Origin: Alcanivorax sp.
GTDB lineage: Bacteria > Pseudomonadota > Gammaproteobacteria > Pseudomonadales > Alcanivoracaceae
DNA: 64,000 nucleotides
Assembly (NCBI RefSeq): GCF_002733835.1
Contig: NZ_NVWY01000007.1
Location: 1 to 64,000, forward strand
Direction of reading: 5' to 3'
Each line of letters starts with the position of its first letter. Position 1 is the stretch's first letter. Below are positions 23,425-38,544 of the stretch, one piece after another. The translations under genes were made by a program, and so were the position numbers. Below the pieces are notes generated by a model that saw nothing but the letters and a program-made list of their open reading frames with translations, did no database searches and was not told the origin of the DNA.

Positions 23425-23601
23425 ATGTATACTGATCGCCTGCTTATTATTTTTATTCTCGGCACCTACTTGCTGTCCCCTGCCATTATTGACTGGTGGA
23501 GTGAAGGTGGCCGCGCCTGGTATCGGCCCTACCTGATCTGGCTGGGCCTGATCGCGCTGAGCTACTGGATTGCCAAGAGCAAGGATGTCGATGGTCTATA
23601 G
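23425..23601 (+). CDS. cbrX: Small membrane protein, CbrX-like
   Basis: Small protein of 58 residues with two hydrophobic segments (about 5-22 and 36-50) rich in Trp and Tyr, ending KSKDVDGL. It directly precedes cbrA and its end overlaps the cbrA start by 17 bases. In Pseudomonas a small hydrophobic frame called cbrX has the same position and couples translation to cbrA; identity here rests on position, size and character. The ribosome binding site is poor (GAGGG about 12 bases away). Confidence 0.7.
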   Translation: MYTDRLLIIFILGTYLLSPAIIDWWSEGGRAWYRPYLIWLGLIALSYWIAKSKDVDGL

Positions 23602-26533
23602 TGTCAGCGACCTCATCCTGATTGCCTGTGGCTACCTGTTTTTTCTTTTCATGGTGGCCTGGATCACCGAACGCGGCTGGTTACCCGCAAGACTGGTGCG
23701 ACACCCGGCGGTATATGTGTTCTCACTCGGGGTCTATGCCAGCGCCTGGGCGGTATACGGCTCGGTGGGGTACGCCTATCAGTACGGCTATAATTTTCTG
23801 TCCTACTTTCTCGGCATATCAGGCGTGTTCCTGCTCGCGCCGATTCTGCTGGCGCCCATCCTGCGCCTGACCACCACCTACCAGTTAAGCTCCCTGGCGG
23901 ATTTGTTTGCCTTCCGCTATCGCAGCCGTCTGGCTGGCGCCATGACCACCATCATCATGCTCATCGGGGTGCTGCCGCTGCTGGCGCTGCAATTAAAAGC
24001 CGTCGCCGAGTCCATCCAGATTCTCAGCGGCACCGCCGACCCCCGCGACCTGGCCGCCGGCTTCTGCCTGATGATGGTGATCTTCGCCATCCTGTTCGGC
24101 GCCCGCCATGCCACCGCCCGGGAGAAACACGAAGGACTGGTGGTGGCCATCGCCATGGAGTCACTGATCAAGCTGCTGGCTTTCGGGGCCGTGGCCCTGC
24201 TGGGCCTGTATGGCGTTTTTGATGGCCCGGAAAGCCTGGGAAATTGGCTAGACGACCACCCGGAAATGCTCTCGCGGCTCTATTACCCGCTACAGGATGG
24301 CACCTGGCACTCCATGATCATGGCATTCTTCGTGTCCGCCGTGGTGCTGCCACACATGTTCTACATGGCGTTCACCGAAAACCTGAACCCCCGCGCCCTG
24401 ATCACCGCCAGCTGGGCACTGCCGCTGATGTTCCTGGTCATGGCCCTGTGCGTGCCGGTTATCCTGTGGGCTGCTGCCGCCAGTAACGCCCCCACGTCGC
24501 CGGACTACTATGCGCTGGGCATTGGCATGGTCACCGGCGGGCACGGCGCCATCCTCGGCTATATTGCCGGTCTGGCCGGTGCCAGCGGCATGCTGATTGT
24601 GGCGACCCTGGCCTTGTCCGGCATGTGCCTGAATCATCTGGTACTGCCTGCCAGCCCGTTGCATCAGGGCAAAAACCTCTACCGCAACCTGCTGTGGACC
24701 CGGCGTATTCTGATCGCCGCCATCCTTGCCCTGGCCTATCTGTTCTATCGCTTCACCGGCACCGAGCACACCCTGGTAGAACTGGGCGTGCTGTCTTTCG
24801 TGGCCACGCTGCAATTTGTTCCCGGGCTGATCGGCGCCCTGTTCTGGCCCTCCGGCAACCGCAATGGTCTGTTCGCCGGTCTCGTCGTGGGTTTCCTGTT
24901 GTGGCTGCTATTACTGCTGCTCCCCATCACCTACCCGCAATGGCAATTTCAGGGCTTGATGGAATTGCTGGGCATGCGATTCCAGACCGGCGCCAGCCAA
25001 TGGCACCACGTGGCCATCGCGTCAGTCACCGCCAACACCTTGATCTACGCCATCGTCTCCATTGTCACGCCCATGTCCCGCGCCGAACAGAACGCGGCGC
25101 AAGCCTGCGCAGTGGACAGTTTGCGCCGCCCCTATCGCTGGGAACTGGAAGCCAAGAGTGTAGATGATTTCATTGATGCGCTGACCCAGCCCCTGGGGCC
25201 GATTACCGCTACCCGGGAAGTGGAAATGGCGCTGCGGGATTTACGTCTGCCACGCACCGAAACCCGGCCCTACGCCCTGCGGCGTTTGCGCGACCAGCTG
25301 GAGACCAACCTGTCAGGCCTGCTGGGGCCGTCGGTTTCCCATCAGTTGATGGACGATCACCTGCCTTACTTGCCTGAAGAGGAACAAAGCTCCAGCGAAG
25401 ACATCCAGTTTATCGAATCACGACTGGAGCAATACCGCGACCGGCTCTCCGGGCTGGCCGCAGAGCTGGACGGCCTGCGACGCTTCCACCGCCAGACCTT
25501 GCTGGAACTGCCCATGGGGGTCATTTCCCTGGGCGCCGACCGGGAAATCATTGGCTGGAACCGGGCCATGGAAGAACTCACCGGCATCACCGCCGCCGAC
25601 ACCATCGGCTCCCGGCTGGCGGATCTGGACCCGCCCTGGGGCGATTTCCTGACGCAGTTCAGCCACGACGACAACCCGCACCAGCCACAACAATCGCTGG
25701 AAGTGGACCGGCAGACTCGCTGGCTCAGCCTGCATAAATCCGAAGTGCTGGGCACCGGCACCTCGGAGCAGGCTGGCGGGCAGGTAGTGGTGATTGAAGA
25801 CATTACTGAACTGCGCCACATGGAAGCGCACCTGGCCCACAATGAGCGGCTCGCCTCCATCGGCCGGCTCGCCGCCGGGGTAGCCCACGAGATTGGCAAC
25901 CCGGTGACCGCCATCGCTTGCCTGGCACAAAACCTGGACAGCGAAACCGATGCAGAGGAACAGCTGGAATCCAGCCAGCAGATCCTTGAACAGACTCGCC
26001 GCATCACCCGCATCGTGGAATCGCTGGTGACTTTCAGCCATTCCGGCGGCATCAAACATAGCCAGCATGTGCCCGTGAATATCCGCGACACCGTGGACGA
26101 AGCCGTATCCCTGCTACTGCTCGACCCGGACCACCGCCAGCAACCCTTCAATAACCAGTGCGAACCGGAACACTGGGTGCAAGGCGACCCACAACGCCTG
26201 CTGCAGGTCTTCATCAACCTGCTGGGCAATGCCGCCGACGCCAGTGCCGACAAACAGCCGGTCATTATTCGCTGCGAAGCCGCCGATGAGGTGCTGGATG
26301 TGATTGTGGAGGATCAGGGCCACGGCATCCCCGATGAACTGCGCGACGCCCTGTTTGAACCCTTTGTCACCAGTAAGCCACCGGGGCGGGGAACAGGCCT
26401 TGGGTTAGCGCTGGTTTACAGTATTATCGAAGAACACCTGGGCGCGATTCGAGTGGAGAGCCCGATCACCGAACAGGGCGGCACCCGGTTTATTATTCGG
26501 CTTCCCATGCACGCCCCAACATCCGGTGTGTAA
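23585..26533 (+). CDS. cbrA: Sensor histidine kinase CbrA with SLC5 transporter domain
   Basis: Membrane sensor of 982 residues for the CbrAB carbon/nitrogen balance system. The N-terminal half (about 1-480) is a sodium:solute symporter-like domain with some 13 helices. Then come a linker, a PAS domain (about 635-745, LPMGVISLGADREIIGWNRAMEEL), a HisKA box with the phospho-His in VAHEIGNPV (about 769) and a HATPase with GRGTGLGLAL. The ATG at 23585 (or 23591) overlaps cbrX. cbrB follows after 36 bases. Confidence 0.92.
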   Translation: MSMVYSVSDLILIACGYLFFLFMVAWITERGWLPARLVRHPAVYVFSLGVYASAWAVYGSVGYAYQYGYNFLSYFLGISGVFLLAPILLAPILRLTTTYQLSSLADLFAFRYRSRLAGAMTTIIMLIGVLPLLALQLKAVAESIQILSGTADPRDLAAGFCLMMVIFAILFGARHATAREKHEGLVVAIAMESLIKLLAFGAVALLGLYGVFDGPESLGNWLDDHPEMLSRLYYPLQDGTWHSMIMAFFVSAVVLPHMFYMAFTENLNPRALITASWALPLMFLVMALCVPVILWAAAASNAPTSPDYYALGIGMVTGGHGAILGYIAGLAGASGMLIVATLALSGMCLNHLVLPASPLHQGKNLYRNLLWTRRILIAAILALAYLFYRFTGTEHTLVELGVLSFVATLQFVPGLIGALFWPSGNRNGLFAGLVVGFLLWLLLLLLPITYPQWQFQGLMELLGMRFQTGASQWHHVAIASVTANTLIYAIVSIVTPMSRAEQNAAQACAVDSLRRPYRWELEAKSVDDFIDALTQPLGPITATREVEMALRDLRLPRTETRPYALRRLRDQLETNLSGLLGPSVSHQLMDDHLPYLPEEEQSSSEDIQFIESRLEQYRDRLSGLAAELDGLRRFHRQTLLELPMGVISLGADREIIGWNRAMEELTGITAADTIGSRLADLDPPWGDFLTQFSHDDNPHQPQQSLEVDRQTRWLSLHKSEVLGTGTSEQAGGQVVVIEDITELRHMEAHLAHNERLASIGRLAAGVAHEIGNPVTAIACLAQNLDSETDAEEQLESSQQILEQTRRITRIVESLVTFSHSGGIKHSQHVPVNIRDTVDEAVSLLLLDPDHRQQPFNNQCEPEHWVQGDPQRLLQVFINLLGNAADASADKQPVIIRCEAADEVLDVIVEDQGHGIPDELRDALFEPFVTSKPPGRGTGLGLALVYSIIEEHLGAIRVESPITEQGGTRFIIRLPMHAPTSGV

Positions 26534-26569: not shown

Positions 26570-27898
26570 ATGAGTCACATTCTGATTGTTGAAGATGAGC
26601 CGGTAATTCGCGGCGCCCTGCGCAAGCTGCTGGTGCGCCACGAACATTCGGTTGAAGAAGCGGAATCCGTGGAGCAGGCCCGCGAGTACAGCCTCAATCA
26701 GTTCGACCTGATTATCAGCGACCTGCGCCTGCCCGGCGAACCCGGCACCACACTTATAGAAGCGGCCGGCATCACACCGGTGCTGATCATGACCAGTTAT
26801 GCCAGCCTGCGCTCCGCAGTGGATGCCATGCGACAGGGCGCCGTGGACTACATCCCCAAACCCTTCGATCACGACGAAATGTTGCTCGCCGTGGATCGGG
26901 TATTGAAAGAAGGCCGCCTGAACCGGGGCAACCGGGCCCTGCGCCGGGACCTGGAACGCAGCTTCCCGGTACGCAACATGATCGGCAACAGCGAGGCCAT
27001 GGAAGAGCTGAAACACCGCATTGGCCGCGTGGGACCGACCAACACCCCGGTGCTGATCATGGGCGAAGCCGGCACCGGCAAAGAGCTCACCGCCCGCGCC
27101 CTGCATGAGCACAGCGAGCGAGGCAATGGCCCGCTGGTCTCGGTGCAATGCGCGGCGCTGCCCCAGGCCCTGCAGCTCACAGAACTATTCGGCGATCACG
27201 AACAGCCCGGCCGCATTGAAGAAGCCGACGGCGGCACCCTGTTTCTGGATGAAGTGGGCGAACTGACCAGCGAAGTACAAAGTCGCCTGCTGACCCTGCT
27301 GACCCATCACGAAATCCACCGTCAGGGCTCCCTGTCACCCCGCCGGGTAGATGTGCGCATTCTCGCCAGCAGCCAGCTGGACCTGCCCGGCCGGGTCGCC
27401 GACGGCAGCTTCCGCCAGGATCTTTACTATCGGCTGAACGTCATGGAATTGACCCTGCCGCCGCTTAATGATCGTCAGGAAGACCTGGAACCCCTGGCCA
27501 ACGCCCTGCTGGCCCGGGGCTGCGAAAAGCTCAACCGTCCGGACCTGCACTTCACCCCGGAAGCCCTGCAAGCCATGCATAGCTATAGCTGGCCCGGCAA
27601 CGTGCGGGAACTGGAAAACGTGATTGAACGGGCCGTTATTCTCACTGAAGAAGACGGCATCGGCCCGGCCCAGCTGGGCCTGAACCCCAACCGCGCCCCC
27701 CAACGCGTCAGCCGGGCCAGCCTGGACCCCAGCGAAGACCTGTCACTGGAAGATTATTTCACTCGCTTCGTGATGGAAAATCAGGACAGCATGACCGAGA
27801 CCGAGTTGGCGCAGAAACTGGGAATCAGCCGGAAAAGCCTTTGGGAGCGGCGTCAGCGGCTGGGCATCCCCCGCAAAAAAGCCAGTGCACGTCGTTGA
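26570..27898 (+). CDS. cbrB: Response regulator CbrB lacking the GAFTGA loop
   Basis: NtrC-family regulator of 442 residues and partner of CbrA. Receiver domain (about 1-115) with the phospho-acceptor in ISDLRLPG (Asp 51), AAA+ domain (about 140-370) with Walker A GEAGTGKE and Walker B GGTLFLDE, and a Fis-type DNA-binding end (TETELAQKLGISRKSLWERRQRLG) like Pseudomonas CbrB. The loop that should read ELFGHEKGAFTGA is replaced by ELFGDHEQPG followed directly by RIEEADGG, so the sigma-54 contact is missing. ATP binding residues and the arginine region FRQDLYYRL remain. Confidence 0.88.
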   Translation: MSHILIVEDEPVIRGALRKLLVRHEHSVEEAESVEQAREYSLNQFDLIISDLRLPGEPGTTLIEAAGITPVLIMTSYASLRSAVDAMRQGAVDYIPKPFDHDEMLLAVDRVLKEGRLNRGNRALRRDLERSFPVRNMIGNSEAMEELKHRIGRVGPTNTPVLIMGEAGTGKELTARALHEHSERGNGPLVSVQCAALPQALQLTELFGDHEQPGRIEEADGGTLFLDEVGELTSEVQSRLLTLLTHHEIHRQGSLSPRRVDVRILASSQLDLPGRVADGSFRQDLYYRLNVMELTLPPLNDRQEDLEPLANALLARGCEKLNRPDLHFTPEALQAMHSYSWPGNVRELENVIERAVILTEEDGIGPAQLGLNPNRAPQRVSRASLDPSEDLSLEDYFTRFVMENQDSMTETELAQKLGISRKSLWERRQRLGIPRKKASARR

Positions 27899-28028: not shown

Positions 28029-28067
28029 GTGTTACCGCTCTACACAGGAAAGTAACACAAGCGTTAC
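28029..28067. promoter_or_regulatory. Inverted GTGTTAC/GTAACAC site, probable CbrB operator
   Basis: GTGTTAC (28029-28035) and GTAACAC (28052-28058) form a 7-bp inverted repeat, and a third half-site GTTACC lies at 28063-28068. They stand between cbrB and the CrcZ-like RNA. Pseudomonas CbrB is reported to bind TGTTAC-type half-sites before crcZ; the spacing here should be compared with that work. Confidence 0.5.
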
Positions 28068-28179
28068 CTGGATCCGGCCGCATTTAAGGTGTTTTTTACA
28101 AAACACACATAACCAAATGATTTAAATGGATTTTTTGGCGTGTTGCATTGGCAGGGGTGGACGGGCACTATGAATCCCA

Positions 28180-28377
28180 CGCCAGCAAACAACAAAAACA
28201 GCGGCGTAAAGGCTCAAACAATAACAACAAGAAAGAAGAACAATAATTTCACGAGCCAATGCAGTGCTGCTGCAACTGATGATTGCAGCGACAAGGCAGA
28301 AAACAACACAAACAATAATAACAACAGAATCAGCGCAAAATATGGGAGTCACAACTTCGGTTGTGGCTCCTTTTTAC
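28180..28377 (+). ncRNA. crcZ: CrcZ-like Hfq/Crc-sequestering small RNA
   Basis: The region contains three A-rich blocks of (A-purine-N) repeats: about 28187-28200 (AACAACAAAAACAG), 28216-28247 (AACAATAACAACAAG...) and 28301-28327 (AACAACACAAACAATAATAA). These are the distal-face Hfq / Crc catabolite-activity motifs. It ends in a strong UUCG-loop terminator and lies between cbrB and pcnB, the exact position of crcZ in Pseudomonas. Such RNAs titrate Hfq-Crc and relieve carbon catabolite repression. The 5' end is approximate; the visible RNA is about 200 bases, shorter than Pseudomonas CrcZ. Confidence 0.8.
28345..28375 (+). terminator. Terminator of the CrcZ-like RNA
   Basis: An 11-bp stem (GGAGTCACAAC / GTTGTGGCTCC, one G-U pair) is closed by a TTCG tetraloop and followed by TTTTT: a textbook intrinsic terminator. 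Confidence 0.95.
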
Positions 28378-28506
28378 TTTCTGGCCGGGCATTTTATCCC
28401 ATTACGTTGGCCGGTGTCGGCCCTTGCGGGCCAAAGACATCTCAACTGGCGAAAAAAAGTGCTACTATCGCCGCCTTATTGCTCATTTTGAGGCCGAATT
28501 TTTCGC

Positions 28507-29886
28507 ATGCCCTGCAAGCTTCTGAAACGTATGACACGCTGGTTCACTCCGGGTTCCCCAAAATCTTCCGGCCCGATAGAACCGCGCGTAATTCCCCGCG
28601 ACCAACACCCGATCTCCCGCAAGCAAGTTTCCCGAGCGGCGCTTGATGTGCTCTACGGATTGCACAAAGGCGGGTTCGAGGCCTACCTGGTCGGCGGCTG
28701 CCTGCGCGACATTCTCTGCGGCCGCGAGCCCAAGGATTTCGACGTCAGCACCAACGCTACACCTGAGCAGGTCAACCGTCTGTTCAAGCGCAGCCGCATT
28801 ATCGGCCGCCGCTTCCAGATCGTGCATGTGCGCTTTGGCCGCGAAGTCATTGAGGTTTCCACCTTCCGGGCCAAGGCCAGCGATGACAACCAGGACCAGA
28901 ACAAACATCACGCCCACGAAGAAACCGGGCTGGTACTGCGCGACAACACCTGGGGCAGCATCGAGGAAGATGCCCTGCGCCGGGACTTCACCATTAATGC
29001 GCTATACTACAATATTGCCGACTTCACCCTGCATGACTTTGTCGGCAGCATGGGCGATATCGACCAGGAAGTGATCCGCCTGATCGGCAACCCGGAACAA
29101 CGCTTCCGCGAAGATCCGGTACGCATGCTGCGCGCGGCCCGCTTCGCCGCCAAGCTGGGCTTCCACATTGAAAGCAGCACGGCGCAACGCATTCCCGACA
29201 TGGCAGAGCTGCTTCTGCAGGTCCCCGCCGCCCGTCTGTTTGATGAAGTGCTCAAGCTGTTCCTCAGCGGCCACGCCCGCGCCTCCTATGAGCAGCTACA
29301 GGAGCTGGGTCTGTTCCGCTTCCTGTTCCCGGAAACCCAGCAAGCGCTTGAAGGCGACCAGGGCGAGACCTGGGAAGCCATGCTGCTGGCCGCCATGGAC
29401 AACACCGACCGCCGCCTGCTGATGGACAAACCCGTCACTCCGGCCTTTATCTATGCGGTACTGCTGTGGCCGGTCATTCAGCAGCGCTTCGGTGGCTACC
29501 TGTCCAGCGGCTTGCCGCCGGCCCAGGCACTGCACAAAGCCGCCACCCGCGCCCTCAACCAGCAAATAAAACACACCGCCATTCCCCGTCGCTTCTCCAC
29601 CGTGATGCGTGAGATGTGGGAATTGCAGCTGCGTCTGGACAAACGGGCCGGGCGCCGCGCCGATGCGATGATGGAACATCCTCGCTTCCGTGCCGCCTAC
29701 GATTTTCTGCTACTGCGTGAGCAGAGCGGAGAGATCAAGGCCGGGCTGGGTGACTGGTGGACCCGCTATCAGGAAGAAGATGAAAGCGGCCGCCGGGACA
29801 TGATCAGTCAGCTGGGCAACCAGGGGGGCGGCGGCAACAAACGCCGTCGCCGTCGGCGCCGCCCGAAGCCTGCTGCGGATAATTAA
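28507..29886 (+). CDS. pcnB: Poly(A) polymerase I
   Basis: Class II nucleotidyltransferase that adds 3' poly(A) tails to RNA and promotes decay. The 459-residue protein has the signature LVGGCLRDILCGREPKDFDVST (about 61-82, with the catalytic Asp pair), the second motif RRDFTINALYY, and FREDPVRMLRAARFA. The C-terminus is a run of arginines (KRRRRRRRPKP), typical of an RNA-binding tail. The start ATG at 28507 has no good binding site; ATG 28531 is an alternative. Its stop overlaps the folK start (TAATG). Confidence 0.95.
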   Translation: MPCKLLKRMTRWFTPGSPKSSGPIEPRVIPRDQHPISRKQVSRAALDVLYGLHKGGFEAYLVGGCLRDILCGREPKDFDVSTNATPEQVNRLFKRSRIIGRRFQIVHVRFGREVIEVSTFRAKASDDNQDQNKHHAHEETGLVLRDNTWGSIEEDALRRDFTINALYYNIADFTLHDFVGSMGDIDQEVIRLIGNPEQRFREDPVRMLRAARFAAKLGFHIESSTAQRIPDMAELLLQVPAARLFDEVLKLFLSGHARASYEQLQELGLFRFLFPETQQALEGDQGETWEAMLLAAMDNTDRRLLMDKPVTPAFIYAVLLWPVIQQRFGGYLSSGLPPAQALHKAATRALNQQIKHTAIPRRFSTVMREMWELQLRLDKRAGRRADAMMEHPRFRAAYDFLLLREQSGEIKAGLGDWWTRYQEEDESGRRDMISQLGNQGGGGNKRRRRRRRPKPAADN

Positions 29887-38193: not shown

Positions 38194-38463
38194 TTAGCGA
38201 CGCAGACCCAGCTTTTCGATCAGCTGGAGGTAACGGGTGCGGTCTTTCTTGGCCAGGTAGTCCAGCAGCTTACGACGCTGGTTTACCATGCGGATCAGAC
38301 CACGACGGCTGTGGTGATCCTTCTTGTGGCCTTTGAAGTGATCCTGCAGGCCATTGATGTTGGCGCTCAGCAGAGCCACCTGAACTTCCGGGGAACCGGT
38401 GTCGTTCTCTTTGCGGCCATGCTCTTTCAGGATCTCAGCTTTCTGTTCAGCGGTTAACGCCAT
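38194..38463 (-). CDS. rpsO: 30S ribosomal protein S15
   Basis: Primary 16S rRNA-binding protein, 89 residues, the exact family length, with the conserved [26 protein letters not shown] and RRKLLDYL blocks. It lies between truB and pnp as in most gammaproteobacteria. Confidence 0.98.
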
Positions 38464-38544
38464 GTTGCTTCTCCAATATGCTCAATTAAGGTCACGGCCA
38501 GCCATGCATATTTATAGCTGCCGTCATTAATCAGGCCAGTCCCC

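Follow-up and report, generated by a model that had tools for sequence, protein, structure and literature searches.

The window analysed here, a stretch of 64,000 nucleotides of Alcanivorax DNA whose closest named contigs in the GTDB collection belong to Alcanivorax species and MAGs, carries a locus with the gene order cbrA-cbrB-CrcZ-like RNA-pcnB. The gap between cbrB and pcnB contains, from 5' to 3', CbrB-type half-sites, an IHF-like site, a TTGCAT/CACTAT pair and an A-rich RNA with a UUCG terminator. The features of the locus are:

23570..26533, plus strand: cbrA, sensor histidine kinase, a 987-aa ORF with PAS, HisKA and HATPase_c domains (Pfam); start codon uncertain
26570..27898, plus strand: cbrB, response regulator of 442 aa with an AAA+ domain and without GAFTGA (Pfam Response_reg, Sigma54_activat, AAA_lid_14)
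27194..27208, plus strand: codons of the truncated loop 1 of CbrB (residues 209-213, DHEQP), where homologues in the CbrB alignment carry the GAFTGA loop
28030..28067, plus strand: predicted CbrB enhancer, with TGTTAC at 28030-28035, GTAACA at 28052-28057 and GTTAC at 28063-28067
28110..28122, plus strand: IHF-like site TAACCAAATGATT, of a pattern kept in the family and judged against the IHF consensus
28143..28148, plus strand: putative -35 element TTGCAT, matching TTGACA at 3 of 6 letters
28166..28171, plus strand: putative -10 element CACTAT, matching TATAAT at 3 of 6 letters, after a 17-nt spacer
28179..28375, plus strand: CrcZ-like RNA of about 197 nt (covariance model match 28175-28375, 211 bits, the window sequence being included in the model)
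28179..28207, plus strand: stem 1, ACGCC/GGCGT (28179-28183 with 28203-28207), with an A-rich loop
28211..28257, plus strand: stem 2, GGCTC/GAGCC (28211-28215 with 28253-28257), around the longest A-rich block
28269..28289, plus strand: hairpin GCTGCAA/TTGCAGC, variable in the family
28345..28370, plus strand: intrinsic terminator stem with UUCG loop
28507-29886: pcnB, after a 608-base gap 3' of cbrB

An ORF at 28140-28646 (168 aa) was rejected as spurious because it overlaps the CrcZ-like RNA and has no Pfam match. Within cbrA (23570-26533), no Pfam match at 1e-3 was obtained for the residues before approximately 647; the CbrA of Pseudomonas has been described as carrying an SLC5 transporter domain. 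Elsewhere in the window, a ribosomal S15 leader (Rfam RF00114, 45 bits) was detected on the minus strand at 38407-38525.

The comparison comprised a family set of 45 Alcanivoracaceae cbrB loci from eight genera, CbrB being present in 45 of the 46 genomes of the family and the genome without a match being 64% complete. The CbrB of the window shares 96-80% identity with those of its own genus (g1) and of the sister genus g3, and 49-67% with its other best matches. The outgroup consisted of 75 loci. Of these, 13 came from order-level genomes, and the other 62 were taken from the 80 best named CbrB matches, whose remaining 18 (L044-L056, L058-L060, L065, L078) belong to Alcanivoracaceae and were dropped as presumed duplicates of genomes in the family set. 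Since these 80 matches were picked by similarity to the window CbrB, near relatives carry more weight in the outgroup. No A-rich cluster was counted 3' of cbrB in 15 outgroup loci, four with less than 400 nt of downstream sequence (L061, L068, L092, L137); another locus counted in this way, L134, has a canonical -24/-12 but just two A-rich motifs. Several family counts are given out of 44, because the automatic rule that located the promoter left L126 unplaced. A second rule was needed to locate the CbrB frame in L107 and L133, and L074, which has an in-frame stop, was excluded from the protein alignment. For the RNA, 41 of 44 sequences were aligned, L017 and L035 being left out as truncated and identical RNAs being merged.

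The presence of a CrcZ-like RNA downstream of cbrB, with three blocks of AAnAAnAA motifs and a UUCG-loop terminator, had been proposed in an earlier note on this DNA, and all three elements were recovered between cbrB and pcnB. Indeed, 12 overlapping AANAANAA starts were found in three clusters (28188-28191, 28217-28239 and 28311-28317), as compared with a mean of 1.35 and a maximum of 8 in 2000 dinucleotide shuffles of the same 199 nt, and these represent 12 of the 23 AANAANAA motifs on the plus strand of the entire window. A covariance model built from 41 family RNAs gave one match per genome in 44 of the 46 Alcanivoracaceae genomes; in G012 the RNA was matched as two pieces at contig ends, and no match was obtained in the 64% complete genome. 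No second copy was found in the family genomes with this search, whose stricter filters lose weak matches. A covariance search with Rfam models, of the kind suggested in the same note, singled out CrcZ (RF01675) as the best match in a 671-base search, at 24.1 bits (E 2e-4), far under the gathering score of 95, so that at the gathering threshold Rfam reports no CrcZ in the window.

The predicted fold of the RNA is most strongly supported at its 3' end. The terminator stem was paired in 99.8% of alignment cells and 7 of its 11 pairs show double-sided changes, covariation that upholds the terminator, whereas the terminator scan, which detected 12 pairs at 28344-28371 followed by a T-run, is no evidence by itself because one such site equals the shuffle mean (1.0). 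Stem 1 was paired in 88.2% of cells over the 41 sequences, with little covariation, and stem 2 in 99.5%, with no double-sided change. The third hairpin is not well supported, since 58-59% of its cells were paired as aligned. The covariation score of the named structure exceeded that of 500 out of 500 shuffles, mostly through the terminator. A block AG.ATCAGCGCA, at 28326-28337 just before the terminator and unpaired in the consensus fold, was found in 41 of 41 aligned family RNAs.

Upstream of the RNA, no GG-N10-GC of any kind was found in the window between 27899 and 28220, in agreement with the earlier note, which had reported no such sigma-54 pair. Throughout the family, a canonical TGGCA-type -24/-12 was found at the crcZ promoter of 0 of 45 loci, the sole match to the pattern (in L131) being placed inside the RNA. 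Among the 60 outgroup loci with an A-rich cluster 3' of cbrB, 58 carry TGG[CT][AC]-N8-GC ahead of it; the exceptions are L026, with TGGCATTAGATCTGTA, where GT replaces GC, and L027, in which A-rich motifs are present and no RNA arrangement was seen by eye. These outgroup counts replace those of a first contingency rule (37 canonical, 23 none and 15 without cluster among the 75 loci), which was too narrow, being confined to the near surroundings of the first A-rich motif.

What the family loci share ahead of the RNA is TTGCA[AT]-N17-CANNAT, a pattern that was framed after the alignment had been seen, and that was found in 44 of 45 family loci, in 0 of 75 outgroup loci (600 nt scanned) and in 6 of 2400 shuffles; the 45th family locus, L126, reads TTGCCA-N17-CAGGAT. 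Identity among representatives of the eight genera was 0.93 in the -35 element, 0.34 in the spacer and 0.78 in the -10 element, with no indels. Conserved hexamers separated by an unconserved spacer of fixed length are the mark that would be expected of one polymerase contacting two elements. Positions C1, A2, A5 and T6 of the -10 element were invariant in 44 of 44 located loci, of which only C1 and A2 are independent, because A5 and T6 belonged to the locating rule. Among spacers of 14-21 nt, only 17 gave both A2 and T6 in all 44, and an alternative TTGCA-N20-TATGAA reading was dropped on this ground. The RNA would start at A28179, the first base of stem 1, which a 7-nt discriminator precedes.

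Matching to sigma-70 consensus gives a less clear picture. The promoter scan of the window did not report TTGCAT/CACTAT, and a sigma-70 matrix that we composed ourselves ranked this pair of positions first in only 17 of 44 family loci, because the hexamers are weak. In the window, the same matrix scored the conserved pair at 4.3, versus 6.1 for TTGGCA (28148)/TATGAA (28169), a pair with a 15-nt spacer that had been suggested as a sigma-70 promoter; this suggestion has to be abandoned, since the pair is not conserved and was the best one in just 6 of 44 family loci. The poor match of CANNAT to TATAAT (three of six letters in each of the 45 loci), together with a sigma-factor survey that covered RpoN only, leaves room for another member of the sigma-70 family, such as a stress sigma, in place of the housekeeping factor. 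We regard this as quite unlikely, as the 17-nt spacing, the TTG at -35 and the invariant A2 and T6 at -10 fit the general features of the housekeeping class best.

A divergent promoter still dependent on sigma-54, with the TTGC at 28143-28146 being a -12 or -24 remnant and another enhancer-binding protein (EBP) supplying GAFTGA, was also considered. The machinery for it exists: rpoN was found in 43 of the 46 Alcanivoracaceae genomes (40 of the 41 more complete ones), so sigma-54 itself was not lost, and two other clear EBPs of the window genome keep GAFTGA. Moreover, TTGC resembles a -12 element, TTGCA sits at about the former place of TGGCA, and nine of the 45 family loci have a bare GG-N10-GC within -60 to +50 of TTGC. 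These bare pairs, however, lack TGGCA except by chance letters, and their place differs between genera; six of the seven g4 loci have theirs at one position, overlapping the -10 element and stem 1. None of the 45 family loci has GG 12 nt ahead of the GC in TTGC, and on this ground TTGCA was rejected as a sigma-54 -12 element; the window itself has no GG-N10-GC in the region searched. A scan with sigma-54 weights scored up to 17.5 of 19.9 in some family loci, off the promoter (L042) and not conserved in place. Since TTGCA has, in addition, a partner element 17 nt downstream across an unconserved spacer free of indels, continued dependence on sigma-54 appears very improbable.

The promoter change is matched by a change in its presumed activator. 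The loss of GAFTGA from CbrB, already noticed in the window sequence, was confirmed by the protein alignment, in which GAFTGA is deleted and nine residues are missing from loop 1. G[AS]FTGA was found in 75 of 75 outgroup CbrBs versus 0 of 45 in Alcanivoracaceae. The 30 loci of g1 and g3 share the 9-residue deletion, and the remaining genera show GAFAAA and GAFAGA (g2), DALPGA or DAVPGA (g4), GAFEGA (g5), DGNNG or DDSNN (g6), GAVAGR or a 7-residue deletion (g7) and ASHLTG (g8). In a tree of 120 CbrBs with the loop removed, obtained with a quick method and with L133 as a long branch, the Alcanivoracaceae lie on one side of a branch with SH-aLRT 100, consistent with a single change. Thus, the association between the two losses, present in 45 of 45 family loci, counts as one evolutionary event and not as 45. 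With this reading, the comparison supports the earlier proposal that activator and promoter both changed while the RNA was retained, and adds three points to it: the whole family shares the change, the scaffold of enhancer and IHF-like site has been preserved, and Crc was not found.

Other motifs of Alcanivoracaceae CbrB were affected to different degrees. The phosphoacceptor Asp of the receiver domain and the GK of Walker A are kept in 45 of 45 proteins, seven of which have something other than DE in Walker B. In sensor I, ATHRD/N has been replaced by forms such as ASSQLD. The window CbrB has the Walker A motif GEAGTGKE and the Walker B motif LFLDEV; its receiver, AAA+ and lid domains were recognized by Pfam, and its C-terminal HTH, with no Pfam match there, was seen by alignment to other CbrBs only. 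Its AlphaFold2 model had a mean pLDDT of 83.6 and a pTM of 0.54. As far as motifs can tell, this state would be compatible with a protein that retains ATP binding and is not required to remodel sigma-54. The most divergent CbrB of the family (L133, genome G023; Walker A GEASTGKQ, Walker B LAEI) comes from an 86% complete genome with no rpoN match either.

The predicted enhancer contains the TGTTAC/GTAACA inverted repeat of the earlier note, with a spacing of 16 nt in the window, followed by GTTAC as a third half-site; a family-specific CTACNCA lies between the first two. The half-site letters equal those of subsites F and R described for P. putida CbrB in PMC6296734, according to which PP2810 requires CbrB and IHF, as reported also for crcZ and crcY, and subsite mutations reduce expression to varying extents, one having no effect. 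The distance from the first half-site to TTGCA was 112-114 nt in 38 and 101-102 nt in 5 of the 44 located loci, values one helical turn apart; L133 fell outside the search pattern for the half-site, yet has GTTAC at 112. A half-site 78-82 nt upstream was found in 42 of 58 outgroup loci (GTAAC) and in 30 of 44 family loci (GTTAC). In 41 of 44 family loci, TTGCA is preceded by the IHF-like site at 31-35 nt; in the 58 outgroup loci, such a site precedes TGGCA by 32 ± 2 nt in 39 and by 42 ± 2 nt in 12. These distances place TTGCA at approximately the former -24 position, with the enhancer keeping its face of the helix. An extended enhancer pattern gave one exact match and one with a single mismatch in the genome (2 and 3 for the reversed control), and given this rarity CbrB may have few targets of that kind.

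Retention of the scaffold bears on whether CbrB is still an activator. The altered GAFTGA and sensor I, along with the seven proteins whose Walker B is not DE, would also suit a CbrB that no longer activates crcZ and sits idle or represses at the retained sites, the sigma-70 promoter being constitutive or under another regulator; GAFTGA-less relatives are not necessarily activators everywhere, NtrC-repressed genes being described for Caulobacter in PMC10274813. Such a loss of activation seems unlikely in view of a half-site distance that varies by no more than 2 bp, or else by one helical turn, the preserved IHF-like site, the phosphoacceptor Asp kept in 45 of 45 proteins and a poor match of the hexamers to consensus, as expected of an activator-dependent promoter.

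The query for Crc was a P. otitidis protein matching PDB 4jg3. At E 1e-10, the 46 Alcanivoracaceae genomes yielded neither Crc nor a Crc-like ExoIII homologue, and at 1e-8 a homologue of Crc/ExoIII type was found in 201 of the 244 order genomes, bearing in mind that matches outside Pseudomonas may include ExoIII-like enzymes. What we take to be catalytic motifs were seen in L155, from a genome outside the 244-genome search, and none in L175, which is among the 201. At least 10 of the 43 order genomes without a match are Alcanivoracaceae. Other families miss Crc too, and G025, an outgroup genome (75% complete) with GAFTGA and -24/-12, yet has no match; the absence of Crc is therefore not tied to the sigma switch. 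The hfq gene is present in the window genome, its translated stretch carrying NGIKLQGQ and, at what is presumably position 25, Phe in place of Tyr. In P. aeruginosa, Tyr25 is reportedly a residue of the Hfq distal face, and CrcZ is no longer bound when it is replaced by Asp. In the same species, Hfq is the principal repressor and Crc is auxiliary (PMC4063720), which makes a decoy acting without Crc plausible.

GAFTGA and the -24/-12 element were lost and a replacement element is conserved, the scaffold and the RNA were kept and Crc was not detected, as established by comparison of the loci; the explanation that we consider probable is that CbrB became a sigma-70 activator, that the crcZ promoter changed along with it, and that the result is an Hfq decoy RNA functioning without Crc. 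From Pseudomonas and from the reports on GAFTGA-less NtrC (PMC10274813, PMC3162934), we infer each functional step, namely use of sigma-70, activation by CbrB, binding of IHF, the start site and sequestration of Hfq, as well as the order of events. In the ancestor of the Alcanivoracaceae, a family of oil degraders, the crcZ promoter would have switched from a sigma-54 -24/-12 to a sigma-70 TTGCAW-N17-CANNAT, and CbrB would have lost the GAFTGA loop, its contact with sigma-54, followed by further decay in individual lineages. Poor carbon supply would activate CbrA; CbrB would still bind the enhancer (28030-28067), which precedes the start by about 135 bp, and an IHF bend would bring it to the sigma-70 polymerase at 28143-28171, in a manner similar to that reported for the GAFTGA-less NtrC of R. 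capsulatus. The CrcZ-like RNA would then rise and take up the distal face of Hfq with its A-rich loops, freeing A-rich leaders. Since Alcanivoracaceae yielded no Crc homologue, Hfq would be the sole protein through which the RNA acts.

Parts of this scheme are already known, CrcZ on the one hand and, on the other, NtrC-type proteins devoid of GAFTGA at sigma-70 promoters, reported for R. capsulatus and Caulobacter NtrC as well as HupR, TyrR, DhaR and VpsR (PMC10274813, PMC3162934). The Alcanivorax locus resembles CbrA/CbrB-CrcZ (CrcY) of Pseudomonas in gene order, TGTTAC/GTAACA half-sites, IHF-like site and an A-rich untranslated RNA with terminator, but differs from it in having no -24/-12, a CbrB without GAFTGA and no detected Crc homologue, and its RNA is shorter, single-copy and below the Rfam cut-off. 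Similarly, Alcanivoracaceae CbrB shares with the NtrC of Rhodobacter capsulatus and Caulobacter an AAA+ domain of NtrC type with loop 1 deleted or altered (the Caulobacter deletion comprising 8 residues, versus 9 in the window CbrB). Unlike those proteins, it is a different ortholog that would regulate a regulatory RNA, and the kept enhancer and IHF-like scaffold allows base-by-base comparison of a former sigma-54 promoter across genera. CsrB and RsmZ act on CsrA/RsmA at GGA sites, whereas the expected target of the CrcZ-like RNA is Hfq at A-rich sites. In both cases, multiple motifs in one RNA would sequester an RNA-binding protein, a comparison made in PMC4063720.

Neither a GAFTGA-less CbrB nor a CrcZ outside Pseudomonadaceae came up in searches of the open-access literature, and a 2022 review restricts the CbrAB-CrcZ locus to that family (PMC8871633). 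The present data extend the locus beyond it. On balance, and with some reserve, we favour a family-wide rewiring from sigma-54 to sigma-70 in which activator and promoter would have undergone matched changes while enhancer, IHF site and spacing were kept, yielding a CrcZ/Hfq circuit without Crc, and in which the loop states of the genera (GAFEGA, GAFAAA, GAFAGA, DALPGA and full deletion) would preserve the course of the switch. In the known cases, it is difficult to trace how an ATP-driven sigma-54 activator turns into one for sigma-70; here the path is testable, because the states before and after occur at the same locus in related genera on a nearly fixed scaffold. If true, the rewiring would also provide a case of a CrcZ decoy that functions without Crc.

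Individual loci of the comparison yielded additional observations. Among the 58 outgroup loci with an A-rich RNA and a canonical -24/-12 next to cbrB, some lie beyond Pseudomonadaceae, in Ketobacter (L071), Thalassolituus (L069), Bermanella (L076) and Microbulbifer (L088). Two canonical -24/-12 elements, each with an A-rich cluster, were located approximately 814 and 1390 nt 3' of cbrB in L086, suggesting tandem CrcZ-like genes. In L107, no CrcZ-like RNA was seen 3' of cbrB; inspection by eye revealed sites resembling TGTTAC/GTAACA, along with a GG-N10-GC (CGGTACGTTCCTTGCA) and a symporter-like gene, which is possibly another target of CbrB.
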